The notes under the pieces: generated by a model | Seen by the model: only the letters and a program-made list of their open reading frames with translations | What the model was told of the DNA's origin: nothing | Databases searched by the model: none | Origin: a bacterium | GTDB lineage: Bacteria > DYJV01 > JALVYZ01 | Assembly (NCBI GenBank): GCA_027037705.1 | Contig: JALVYZ010000428.1 | Span: 1-6,278, forward strand | Length of the DNA: 6,278 bases | Direction: 5' to 3' | Shown here: piece by piece, positions 2,528 through 6,278 of the stretch | How the letters are laid out: each line of letters starts with the position of its first letter | How positions within the stretch are numbered: position 1 is the stretch's first letter | Program-made: the position numbers and the translations under genes

Positions 2528-2542
2528 GTGAGGTTAAAAATG
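2528..2542 (+). promoter_or_regulatory. Ribosome-binding site fixing the moeA start
   Basis: GTGAGGT at 2528-2534 places GAGG six bases before the ATG at 2540. This favours ATG 2540 over an in-frame TTG at 2489, which overlaps the end of the glycosylase gene and would add 17 non-conserved hydrophobic/basic residues. The palindrome at 2513-2529 (ACTTTTTT, A, AAAAAAGT) abuts this site and would be only a weak AT-stem in RNA. Confidence 0.7.
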
Positions 2543-3757
2543 AAAAAAATGATATCTGCAGATGAAGCTATAAAAATAATTTTAACAAATACAAAGTTAC
2601 TTCCAGTTGAAAAAATTTTTATAAATAAATCATTAAGAAGAGTTTTAGCAGAAGATATCTTCTCTCCTTATAATATCCCTTTTGCAGATAACTCTGCTAT
2701 GGATGGTTATGCCTTAAAATCTACAGACACAATTGGAGCAAATGAAAAAAACCCCACAAAGTTAAAAATTGTAGGAATAATACCTGCTGGGAAAGTCTTT
2801 AAAGGCAAAATAAAATCAGGTGAAGCATGTAAAATTATGACTGGCGGAATAATTCCAGATGGAGCTGACTGTGTAGCAAGAAAAGAAATTTGCAAAGAAG
2901 AAAATGGTTATGTTTATATCTTTGAAGAGGTAAAAAAGGAAAAAGATTTGAGAAAAACAGGAGAGGATATAAAAAAGGGGGAATGCGTTTTAAAAAAAGG
3001 GACAGAAATAACACCAGCAGTAGTTGGAGTCTTAGCTTCAGTAGGAAAAAGTAATATTTACGTTTATAGAAAACCTAAAGTATCAATTATCATTTCAGGA
3101 GATGAAATTGCAGATATTGATGAACCATTAATTAAGGGAAAGGTTAAAAATTCAAATACCTACACTTTAATTTCTATGATAAAAGAAAGTGGAGGTATAC
3201 CTATAAATAGAGGGATTATTAAAGATGATAAAGAAAATCTAAAAAAAGCAATAAAAGAATGTTTAAATTCAGATATAATTTTATCAACTGGTGGAGTGTC
3301 AGTAGGAGATTATGATTTTACAAAAGAAGTTATTGAAGAATTAGGATTCAAAGTGCATTTCTGGAAATTGAGAATTAAACCAGGTAAACCTCTATTGTTT
3401 GCAACATTTGAGGATAAATTATACTTTGGGATACCAGGTAATCCTGTATCAACAATGGTTGTTTTTTACAATTTTATAATGCCTGCTATTTTAAAAATGC
3501 AAGGAAAGAATAACATTTTTTTACCAGAAACAGAAGCAATTCTCGATGAGGATTTAAAGAAAAAAGATGAAAGGAAAGAATATATTAGAGGAATTTTGTA
3601 TAAAAAAAATGGGAAATTATATGTAAAATCAACAGGTCCTCAAGGATCAGGAATATTAAAATCAATGGTTTTAGGAAATTGCTTTATAGTTGTTAATGAA
3701 AATCAAAAATTTATTAATAAAGGTGAATTAATAAAAGTTCTTATTTATAGAATGTAG
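2540..3757 (+). CDS. moeA: Molybdopterin molybdenumtransferase MoeA
   Basis: The 405-residue product from ATG 2540 matches the usual MoeA length (about 400-411). MoeA inserts molybdate into adenylylated molybdopterin in the last step of molybdenum cofactor synthesis; some family members act with tungstate. Signatures in order: PFADNSAMDGYA (47-58), the substrate-binding/dimer region; MTGGIIPDGAD (100-110); the MoCF-like domain with SGDEI (186-190) and LSTGGVSVGDYDF (248-260); KPGKPLLFA (280-288) with the conserved Lys; GIPGNPVS (297-304); and a small C-terminal beta domain (about 330-405). All expected acidic and lysine residues in these motifs are present, so it should be active. No other cofactor genes (mog, moaA-E, mobA) are in the window, so the pathway must be encoded elsewhere. 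It probably shares a transcript with the glycosylase upstream; the hairpin at 3817-3843 would end it. Confidence 0.93.
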   Translation: MKKMISADEAIKIILTNTKLLPVEKIFINKSLRRVLAEDIFSPYNIPFADNSAMDGYALKSTDTIGANEKNPTKLKIVGIIPAGKVFKGKIKSGEACKIMTGGIIPDGADCVARKEICKEENGYVYIFEEVKKEKDLRKTGEDIKKGECVLKKGTEITPAVVGVLASVGKSNIYVYRKPKVSIIISGDEIADIDEPLIKGKVKNSNTYTLISMIKESGGIPINRGIIKDDKENLKKAIKECLNSDIILSTGGVSVGDYDFTKEVIEELGFKVHFWKLRIKPGKPLLFATFEDKLYFGIPGNPVSTMVVFYNFIMPAILKMQGKNNIFLPETEAILDEDLKKKDERKEYIRGILYKKNGKLYVKSTGPQGSGILKSMVLGNCFIVVNENQKFINKGELIKVLIYRM

Positions 3758-3781: not shown

Positions 3782-3810
3782 TTGACATTTTTTAAAAAAG
3801 TTTTTATGAT
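3782..3810 (+). promoter_or_regulatory. Near-consensus sigma-70-type promoter of the rimP-nusA-infB operon
   Basis: TTGACA (3782-3787, perfect), a 17-base spacer, then TATGAT (3805-3810, five of six). This is the best promoter in the window. It predicts transcription starting near 3816-3818, about 35 bases before the rimP ATG. That start point coincides with the left base of the hairpin at 3817-3839. Confidence 0.75.
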
Positions 3811-3816
3811 AAAATT

Positions 3817-3843
3817 AAAGTGGGCTTAAAGCCCACTTTTTTT
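3817..3843 (+). terminator. Intrinsic terminator: end of moeA transcript and/or leader attenuator of rimP operon
   Basis: AAAGTGGGC (3817-3825), loop TTAAA (3826-3830), GCCCACTTT (3831-3839): a perfect 9-bp stem running into seven Ts (3837-3843). It is a textbook Rho-independent terminator on the + strand, 59 bases after the moeA stop. Unusually, it lies downstream of the operon promoter at 3782-3810, so transcripts from that promoter must also pass it. The 5' end of the mRNA would start with this stem. Whether it terminates promoter-proximal RNA, or only moeA read-through, cannot be told from sequence. Confidence 0.85.
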
Positions 3844-3855
3844 ATGGGAGAATGA
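3844..3855 (+). promoter_or_regulatory. Unusual rimP initiation region with a three-codon upstream frame
   Basis: The only Shine-Dalgarno-like string, GGGAG (3846-3850), is separated from the rimP ATG (3852) by one base, far shorter than the usual 5-9. The string is inside ATG GGA GAA TGA (3844-3855), a three-codon frame whose stop overlaps the rimP start as ATGA. The upstream ATG directly follows the terminator T-tract. It could be a coupling device or chance. Confidence 0.4.
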
Positions 3856-4325
3856 AAACAAAAGAAATTATTGAAAAAAGTTATAATATTTTAGAAAAAT
3901 TTATTGAATCTCTTGGATACGAAGTTTTATTAATTGAATTTCAAAAAGAACAGATTGGATGGGTGTTAAGAGTGTATATAGATAAAGATGGTGGTGTAAC
4001 TATTGACGATTGTGCTAAAGTTAGTGAATTAATTTCTCCAATTTTAGATGTTGAAGACTATATTCAAAGCTCTTATAATTTAGAAGTATCAAGTCCAGGA
4101 TTAAATAGACCATTAAGAAAAAAAGAACATTTTGAGAAAGTATTAGGAGAAAAAGTAAAAATTGTATTAGAAGAAGGGATTGAAGAATATGATAACAGGA
4201 AAAATTATAAAGGAAAGTTAAAAGAAGTTTCAGAACAAGATGTTGTTATTGAAATAGATAAAAAAAATTATAAAATCCCAATAAAAAAAATAAAAAAAGC
4301 AAATTTAATATATAAATTTAAATAA
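3852..4325 (+). CDS. rimP: Ribosome maturation factor RimP
   Basis: A 157-residue RimP of normal length. It binds the 30S subunit precursor and helps late assembly around protein S12; it acts in the cytoplasm. The N-terminal alpha/beta domain (about 1-80) contains VLRVYIDKDGGVTIDDC (38-54) and the SELISPILD segment (58-66). The linker signature LEVSSPGLNRPLRK (77-90) is nearly perfect, and the C-terminal Sm-like barrel fills the rest (about 91-157) in a lysine-rich form. This start matches the family's N-terminus, and no better in-frame start exists, although the ribosome-binding site is only one base away. It is the first gene of the operon, directly behind the promoter/hairpin region, with nusA 11 bases downstream, the usual partner order. 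Confidence 0.93.
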   Translation: MKTKEIIEKSYNILEKFIESLGYEVLLIEFQKEQIGWVLRVYIDKDGGVTIDDCAKVSELISPILDVEDYIQSSYNLEVSSPGLNRPLRKKEHFEKVLGEKVKIVLEEGIEEYDNRKNYKGKLKEVSEQDVVIEIDKKNYKIPIKKIKKANLIYKFK

Positions 4326-4336
4326 AGAGGTGTGAA

Positions 4337-5608
4337 ATGAGCCTAAAATTAAATTATGTTCTCGAACAAGTTAGCCGTGAAAAAAATATTGATAAAGATG
4401 TCTTAATTGAGGCAATTGAAAAAGCTGTATTAGCAGCTGCGAAAAAAAAATTTCCAGATAGGGATTTAGAAGCTCACTATAATGAAAATACAGGAGAAGT
4501 AGAAGTATTTGAATTTGTAGAAGTTGTTGAAAAAGTAGATGATTCATATAGACAAATATCATATGAAGAAGCAAAAGAGATAGATCCTGAAGTTCAAATT
4601 GGAGATGAATTAGGATTAAAAATCCCATCTGAAGAATTGCAAAGAACTACTATCCAGGTTGCAAAACAAATTATAATAAATAAACTTAGAGATGCTGAAA
4701 GGGATGTAATTTATAATGAATACAAGGATAGAATAGGTGAATTAATAATTGGATATTTACAGAGAATTGAAAATGGAAATTTAATAATTAATTTAGGAAA
4801 AACAGAAGGAATAATTCCAAGACAGGAACAATCTCCTGCAGATAATTTCTCTCAGGGTGAAAGAGTAAAAGCTGTAATTATAGATGTTAGAAAAGAAACA
4901 AAAGGACCTCAAATTATCTTATCAAGGACCCATCCTGATTTATTAAAAAGATTATTTGAATTAGAAGTCCCTGAAATTTATGAAGGAATAGTAGAAATAA
5001 AATCTGCTGCAAGAGATCCTGGAAAAAGAGCAAAAATTGCAGTCTATTCAAGAAATGTAGATGTTGATCCTGTTGGAGCATGTGTTGGAATGAGAGGATC
5101 CAGAGTTAATGCTGTTACAAAAGAACTACGAGGTGAAAGAATTGATATTGTTAGATGGGATCCTGATCCAGTAGAATTTGTAAAAAATGCTTTATCACCA
5201 GCTCAAATTAATAAAATTAACCTTAATGAAGAAGATAGAATTATGGAAATTATAGTTCCAAATGAAAATTTATCAGTTGCAATAGGAAAAAGAGGCCAAA
5301 ATGTTAAATTAGCTGCAAAATTAACAGGTTACAGACTTGATATAAAGAGTGAAGCAAAAGCTGAAGAAGAATTTGAAAGTGTATTTAAACCATTAAAGGA
5401 AAAAACAGATATTGACTTTTTATCAATGAGGATACTATTTGATGAAGGATTTAGAACTATTCCAGCAATTGCAGAAGCAGACCCAGATGAAATTGCAGAT
5501 ATTTTAGATATAGATACTGAAAAAGCATATGAAATAATTGACGCAGCAAAAGAAATTTATGAAGAAATGCAAAAAAAAGTAGAAGAAGAAGTGGATGGCG
5601 AGGAATAA
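4337..5608 (+). CDS. nusA: Transcription elongation/termination factor NusA
   Basis: A 423-residue NusA. It binds RNA polymerase near the RNA exit channel, stimulates hairpin-dependent pausing and intrinsic termination, and takes part in antitermination complexes. Domains in order: polymerase-binding N-terminal domain (about 1-128, opening with VLEQVSREKNIDKDVLIEA); S1 domain (about 134-200, IIGYLQRIENGNLIINLGK onward); KH1 with the GMRG loop (251-254) after DPVGACV; KH2 with GKRG (317-320) before QNVKLAAKLTGYRLDI; then a single helix-hairpin-helix/acidic-repeat-like C-terminal domain (about 358-412) and a very acidic tail. It is longer than the Bacillus-type protein, which lacks this domain, and shorter than the E. 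coli one, which has two repeats. AGAGGTG (4326-4331) is a good ribosome-binding site. Its 3' end overlaps the next gene by 14 bases. The hairpin ahead of the operon is a candidate for NusA self-control. Confidence 0.95.
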   Translation: MSLKLNYVLEQVSREKNIDKDVLIEAIEKAVLAAAKKKFPDRDLEAHYNENTGEVEVFEFVEVVEKVDDSYRQISYEEAKEIDPEVQIGDELGLKIPSEELQRTTIQVAKQIIINKLRDAERDVIYNEYKDRIGELIIGYLQRIENGNLIINLGKTEGIIPRQEQSPADNFSQGERVKAVIIDVRKETKGPQIILSRTHPDLLKRLFELEVPEIYEGIVEIKSAARDPGKRAKIAVYSRNVDVDPVGACVGMRGSRVNAVTKELRGERIDIVRWDPDPVEFVKNALSPAQINKINLNEEDRIMEIIVPNENLSVAIGKRGQNVKLAAKLTGYRLDIKSEAKAEEEFESVFKPLKEKTDIDFLSMRILFDEGFRTIPAIAEADPDEIADILDIDTEKAYEIIDAAKEIYEEMQKKVEEEVDGEE

Positions 5609-6155
5609 ATTTTTAAGGACTTGTATAATATGTAGAGAGCCAAAAGAAAAAGATGATTTATATAGATTTACGATTGTTAATGGTGAGGTGACTCTTGATT
5701 ATTATAAAAAACTTGAAGGTAGAGGATTTTATATTTGTAAGAATAAAGAATGTTTAGAAAAATTGAATAGAAAAGTAATTGTAAAAAATATTAAAAGAGA
5801 AAATTTTAATATTGATAAAGAAAAAATTTTGAAAACTTTAAAAAATATGATAAAAGCTCACATTTATAATACAATAAAAATTTGTAATAAATCTGGAGCG
5901 ATTGAAGCAACATTTAATAGATTAAATAACTGTGATAGAGAAATATGCATGATTATTTTAGCTAATGATTGTTCAGAAAATACAATTAAAAAGGCAAAAA
6001 AATTTTTAAAAGATACTTTTTTAATTCAAGATTTATTTTCTAAAAATGAACTTGGTAAAATAATTAGCAAAGACGAAGTAGCTCTGATTGGAATAACAGA
6101 TAAAAAATTTTGTGAAAAATTAAAGCAACTTTATACTGAATATTTGGGGGTTTGA
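5595..6155 (+). CDS. ylxR: YlxR (DUF448) RNA-binding protein fused to a YlxQ/L7Ae-like domain
   Basis: The 186-residue product combines two normally separate operon proteins. Residues 1 to about 75 are YlxR/DUF448: RTCIICREPKEKDDLYRF (8-25) and GRGFYICKNKEC (42-53), with the cysteine pairs C10/C13 and C48/C53. Residues about 83-186 resemble the L7Ae/L30e ribosomal-protein fold of YlxQ: a degenerate IKICNKSGAIEATFNRL stretch, then ICMIILANDCSENTIKKAKKF, close to the family's LV.IA.DASENT.KK. The exact roles are not settled; RNA binding, and for YlxR nucleoid-linked or RNase P-related roles, have been proposed in other bacteria. The ATG sits inside the last codons of nusA (14-base overlap) with no strong ribosome-binding site, so translation is probably coupled to nusA. 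Similar two-domain proteins are known in some proteobacteria. Confidence 0.88.
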   Translation: MARNKFLRTCIICREPKEKDDLYRFTIVNGEVTLDYYKKLEGRGFYICKNKECLEKLNRKVIVKNIKRENFNIDKEKILKTLKNMIKAHIYNTIKICNKSGAIEATFNRLNNCDREICMIILANDCSENTIKKAKKFLKDTFLIQDLFSKNELGKIISKDEVALIGITDKKFCEKLKQLYTEYLGV

Positions 6156-6162
6156 TTTAATG
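6146..6162 (+). promoter_or_regulatory. infB ribosome-binding site inside the end of ylxR
   Basis: GGGGGT (6146-6151) is formed by the last codons of ylxR and lies eight bases before the infB ATG at 6160. The ylxR stop (6153-6155) falls between them, so terminating and initiating ribosomes overlap, consistent with coupled translation. Confidence 0.6.
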
Positions 6163-6278
6163 GAAATGGATAAAATTTTATCTCTTTCAAAAGAACTTGG
6201 TGTAAGTCCAGAAGAGATAATTAAAACTATTGAAAGAAAAAAGAAAGAGAAAGAACATACAGAAAAGTCTCTTGAAGA
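6160..6278 (+). CDS. infB: Translation initiation factor IF-2, N-terminal fragment (cut by window edge)
   Basis: Thirty-nine codons are visible, beginning MEMDKILSLSKELGVSPEEI. This is the small helical IF2_N module at the start of bacterial IF-2, with the typical K-E-L-G-V-S core, followed by a lysine/glutamate-rich stretch that starts the usual charged linker. IF-2 is the GTPase that brings initiator tRNA to the 30S subunit and promotes subunit joining; its GTPase domains lie beyond the window. The call rests on this short module together with the invariant position after nusA-ylxR. The start has a good ribosome-binding site four bases after the preceding stop. Confidence 0.88.
   Translation, partial: MEMDKILSLSKELGVSPEEIIKTIERKKKEKEHTEKSLE

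Follow-up and report, generated by a model that had tools for sequence, protein, structure and literature searches.

The window is contig C428, 6,278 nucleotides long, from a draft assembly of 2.05 Mb split over 496 contigs. It contains a short intrinsic-terminator hairpin lying between two genes of the same strand and on the predicted start point of the downstream operon. Does this hairpin serve the upstream gene, moeA, or the rimP-nusA operon that follows it? The features that bear on this question are listed below.

2540-3757, + strand: moeA (Pfam and NCBIfam)
3782-3810, + strand: sigma-70-type promoter TTGACA-17-TATGAT of the rimP-nusA operon (from sequence; an upstream promoter is conserved in relatives)
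3817-3843, + strand: rimP-leader intrinsic-terminator hairpin of the AAAGUGGGCUU-AAA type with T tract (fold, covariance model R1, conservation before rimP)
3845-3849, + strand: GGGAG, probable rimP ribosome-binding site (from sequence; directly after the T tract)
3852-4325, + strand: rimP (NCBIfam NF000927, 164.8 bits; Pfam RimP_N and RimP C-terminal domain)
4337-5608, + strand: nusA (TIGR01953, 425 bits; Pfam NusA_N, S1, and KH_5)
5595-6155, + strand: ylxR/L7Ae-like gene of the same operon (Pfam YlxR, 63.3 bits; weak L7Ae-type matches)
6160-6278, + strand: first part of the following gene, truncated where the contig stops, reading MEMDKILSLSKELGVSPEEIIK

The encoded NusA has an N-terminal domain, S1, KH, and one C-terminal-repeat-like stretch. 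The truncated gene is probably infB, as judged from its resemblance to the start of a 907-aa IF-2 gene at the same place in G001, a genome of the same order and the one other genome available for comparison at the phylum level. At the other end of the window, a LicD-family gene (385-1116; Pfam) lies between two direct copies of a fragment, at 1-109 and 1462-1570, that share 93% identity over 109 nt. Read by eye on the - strand, the repeated fragment resembles the start of an IS3-type transposase OrfA, and the + strand ORF at 1332-1592 is therefore probably spurious.

The promoter was located as described in an earlier sequence-only reading of this DNA, with the -35 box TTGACA at 3782-3787 and, after a 17-nt spacer, the -10 box TATGAT at 3805-3810. 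With 11 of 12 consensus matches, it is the sole + strand site in the window to score that high. Genome-wide, the pattern TTGACA-N15..19-TATNAT occurred at 29 sites as compared with 10 for the reversed pattern (an approximately threefold enrichment), and many of the 29 precede a ribosome-binding site and start codon by a few tens of bases. Both observations make this promoter class credible. Among these 29 consensus promoters, only that of rimP has a terminator within 90 nt downstream. The gap between the -10 box and the hairpin is 6 nt, and the predicted start point at about 3816-3818 (6-8 nt past the -10 box) coincides with the first bases of the hairpin, in agreement with the earlier claim that the predicted start lies on the terminator.

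The hairpin itself, which the sequence-only reading had given as a perfect 9-bp stem with seven Ts at 3817-3843, was also confirmed. Positions 3817-3839 fold at -14.0 kcal/mol (z-score -3.9 against shuffles) into a 10-bp stem with a loop of 3 nt, or a stem of 9 bp when the loop is taken as 5 nt, and the first three of the seven Ts at 3837-3843 pair with AAA on the 5' side. A scan of the window returned three terminator-like sites where 1.1 would be expected, and two of these are this one hairpin, seen once on each strand. Eight nucleotides separate the T tract from the rimP ATG, and the whole leader is thus only about 35 nt long. A longer fold (3817-3900) retained the same hairpin with no competing structure, and neither an antiterminator nor a larger leader structure was visible in either fold. 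A dispersed repeat or mobile hairpin was rejected as its source, since TGGGCTTNAAGCCCA occurs only once in the genome with up to one mismatch allowed, namely in the rimP leader. Two further BLAST matches in the same genome (L003 and L004) were AT-rich stretches and were taken for chance.

Hairpins before rimP have been described previously. The rimP-leader was reported by Naville and Gautheret (2010) as their most ubiquitous transcription attenuator (PMC2965389), and the window hairpin is this organism's rimP-leader; the element as such is therefore already described. It shares with the published element the gene, the place, the G-rich 5' and C-rich 3' arms (GGGc...gCCC), and the T tract, and it is likewise without a visible antiterminator or larger conserved structure. 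The stem GTGGGC...GCCCAC followed by TTTTTTT has the expected stem and T tract, the downstream genes were confirmed as rimP and nusA, the distance to the gene (8 nt) falls inside the reported 4-130 nt, and homologous placement was found in G001 and in 111 of 178 loci. We found no difference that matters, the window hairpin being one that begins at the predicted start point. Rfam gave no match to the window at the gathering threshold. The gammaproteobacterial rimP leader, RF01770, which occupies the same position before the same gene and is a longer tandem structure, reached 17.6 bits where its gathering score is 47, and the permissive mode returned only sub-threshold matches to terminator-containing families.

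In order to follow the hairpin across bacteria, we compared rimP or nusA loci from about 200 genomes, nearly all of them very distant. The strict pattern GTGGG-N(1-14)-CC[CT][AG]C was found upstream of rimP in the 111 loci mentioned above, and a looser terminator finder detected a terminator-like leader hairpin in 132 of 180. GTGGG was present in 107 of 142 leader terminators compared with six of 89 same-strand terminators elsewhere, and some of these six may be rimP leaders just beyond the limits used. One batch of 80 loci contains mutually close relatives, and the one-per-genome set is consequently the better basis for counts. In G001, AGAAGTGGGTTAATCACCCACTTTTTTT lies 40 nt before rimP, and the gene upstream encodes an unrelated 656-aa protein in place of MoeA. 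The upstream gene is divergent in 12 of the 51 genomes where one could be called, and the distance from hairpin to rimP start varies from 13 to 250 nt among relatives.

An alignment of 55 one-per-genome sequences with the window excluded (A1) showed pairing in 94.7% of stem cells. Both sides had changed in 43 cells versus 13.4 in shuffles, the covarying pairs being those that lie beyond the core and the one at its inner end; the core columns are invariant because the sequences were picked by the pattern GTGGG...CCCRC. The covariance model built from A1 (R1) recovered the window hairpin at 36.1 bits (E 9.5e-8). When R1 was run over the whole genome, other hairpins scored 28-34 bits versus 36 for the rimP leader; those that were readable had GCGGG...CCCGC, one of them right after a stop codon, and are probably ordinary terminators. 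With such terminators close behind, R1 is not a specific genome-wide detector, and the rimP hairpin is set apart by its place and its conserved recurrence, not by its sequence alone.

Several variants were also seen. Elsewhere in the window's own genome (G000), terminators are often of the form AAAAAGCGGG...CCCGCTTTTT and readable on both strands (C454:466, C305:11925, and C166:8990; L247, L251, and L252). The GTGGG core is not universal, as five loci (L007, L010, L011, L022, and L034) carry, ahead of rimP, a terminator-like hairpin whose core differs (GGTGGACTCTCGTAGTCCACC in L011, for instance). L190 has two tandem GTGGG...CCC-type hairpins, 101 and 43 nt before rimP, an arrangement that recalls the tandem form of Gammaproteobacteria, where in contrast the upstream hairpin is inverted. 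A search of phage records gave NusA of bacterial type only, in records containing host DNA.

The promoter is conserved alongside the hairpin. Using a matrix of the E. coli/B. subtilis type, we scored the best sigma-70-like site within 90 nt upstream of the hairpin and obtained a mean of 10.1 for the 55 one-per-genome relatives. Shuffles gave 5.9, with none of the 300 shuffle means above 6.7, and a control stretch further upstream gave 4.6. The distance between the two elements looks two-peaked in these 55 leaders, at 8-15 and 24-33 nt. Measured from the -10 box to GTGGG, 22 leaders fall at 24-33 nt, where shuffles gave 8.9 and at most 16, and 13 fall at 8-15 nt, where shuffles gave 7.2 and at most 14, the shorter class being only suggestive as its count is below the shuffle maximum. 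The window, with 9 nt, belongs to this class, and distances of 8-11 nt were seen 23 times versus 6.0 expected when all 110 loci, related genomes included, were considered. As to the spacing between promoter and hairpin in relatives, the compact class thus recurs in distant genomes, while the promoter of the sole close relative is not clear. The tight fit between promoter and hairpin is real, and being present in other bacteria it is not new. In Streptococcus agalactiae, RNA-seq showed that transcripts of gbs0413-gbs0418 (rimP-nusA-infB), for which NusA feedback was proposed, terminate 31 nt past their start site (PMC4448216), and the compact form was therefore already known; the terminator about 30 nt from the start of the same operon was mapped there and is predicted from sequence here.

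We consider it likely that the rimP-leader is a factor-controlled transcription attenuator, consisting of one short terminator before rimP-nusA-ylxR-infB and responsive to NusA. The sequence-only reading had likewise proposed an attenuator-type terminator of rimP-nusA, and its sequence, its place, and its closeness to a promoter proved to be conserved across distant bacteria. Transcription would begin on the hairpin or a few bases from it at most, near 3817, giving the RNA AAAGUGGGCUUAAAGCCCACUUUUUUU. Control would act via polymerase-bound factors and the speed through the T tract, as the leader is too short for an antiterminator. The best candidate is NusA, a product of the operon itself and a factor that promotes intrinsic termination as well as hairpin-dependent pausing. 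Plentiful NusA would help the hairpin to stop RNA polymerase after about 25-28 nt, and when NusA is scarce more polymerases would read through into rimP-nusA. Termination at the hairpin and its response to NusA in this organism are what we infer, the NusA step by analogy with B. subtilis, E. coli, and S. agalactiae. In B. subtilis, NusA controls its own synthesis by stimulating intrinsic termination in the 5' leader of the operon that encodes it (reviewed in PMC12288461), a leader of about 180 nt (PMC2965389) that is considerably longer than that of the window, and NusA represses its operon in E. coli according to work cited in PMC2965389. On these grounds, NusA probably limits its own production through this leader. 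Against this, an early complex might not allow efficient formation of a hairpin so near the 5' end.

The simpler possibility raised in the sequence-only reading, that a mere moeA 3' terminator came to lie by chance against the next promoter and is escaped by polymerase, gains some support from the locus itself, where moeA, which is on the same strand, stops at 3757 with no other terminator before the hairpin, and from the ordinary terminators of this genome, which include GC-rich hairpins of a similar kind with T tracts. It is contradicted by the relatives. The recurrence of the hairpin before rimP, downstream of genes that differ (G001) or diverge, shows that it belongs to rimP-nusA, and the concentration of the GTGGG core in rimP leaders points the same way, leaving this explanation highly improbable. 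As nothing else lies between the two genes, the rimP-leader hairpin may still end RNA from moeA as a side effect.

A constitutive brake, by which a fixed fraction of polymerases terminates and the operon is kept at a low level with no sensing of NusA, would agree with the lack of a visible sensor or antiterminator in the folds. We regard it as unlikely in view of the feedback in B. subtilis (PMC12288461) and the repression in E. coli (as cited in PMC2965389), and of a stem sequence conserved beyond the needs of termination alone (PMC2965389 and our leader counts). That same conservation suggests recognition, and could be taken to mean that RimP or another RNA-binding protein reads the GTGGG stem, or that the hairpin affects translation or RNA stability, the stem ending (3839) only 6 nt before the ribosome-binding site (3845). 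The variable distance between hairpin and rimP in relatives is ill-suited to a translational role and the retained T tract is consistent with termination, so that control of this kind appears very unlikely.

The two-peaked distance might reflect a constraint of early elongation. A start on the hairpin requires that the hairpin form in RNA of near-minimal length. Rather speculatively, and with a low probability in our estimate, rimP-leaders may have two geometries, one with the start on the hairpin and the other with the start about 15-25 nt ahead of it. In the first of these, that of the window, the outcome would be decided by NusA as it arrives and sigma departs. If true, transcription would be controlled at a point that lies between escape from the promoter and attenuation.

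The attenuator interpretation extends a described and nearly universal element to an isolated lineage, in which the promoter, the hairpin, and their conservation with rimP are observed, and the nearby promoter, not the hairpin alone, is found to be conserved. The compact class would in addition provide a natural template of very small size with which to study how early after initiation NusA is able to affect termination.
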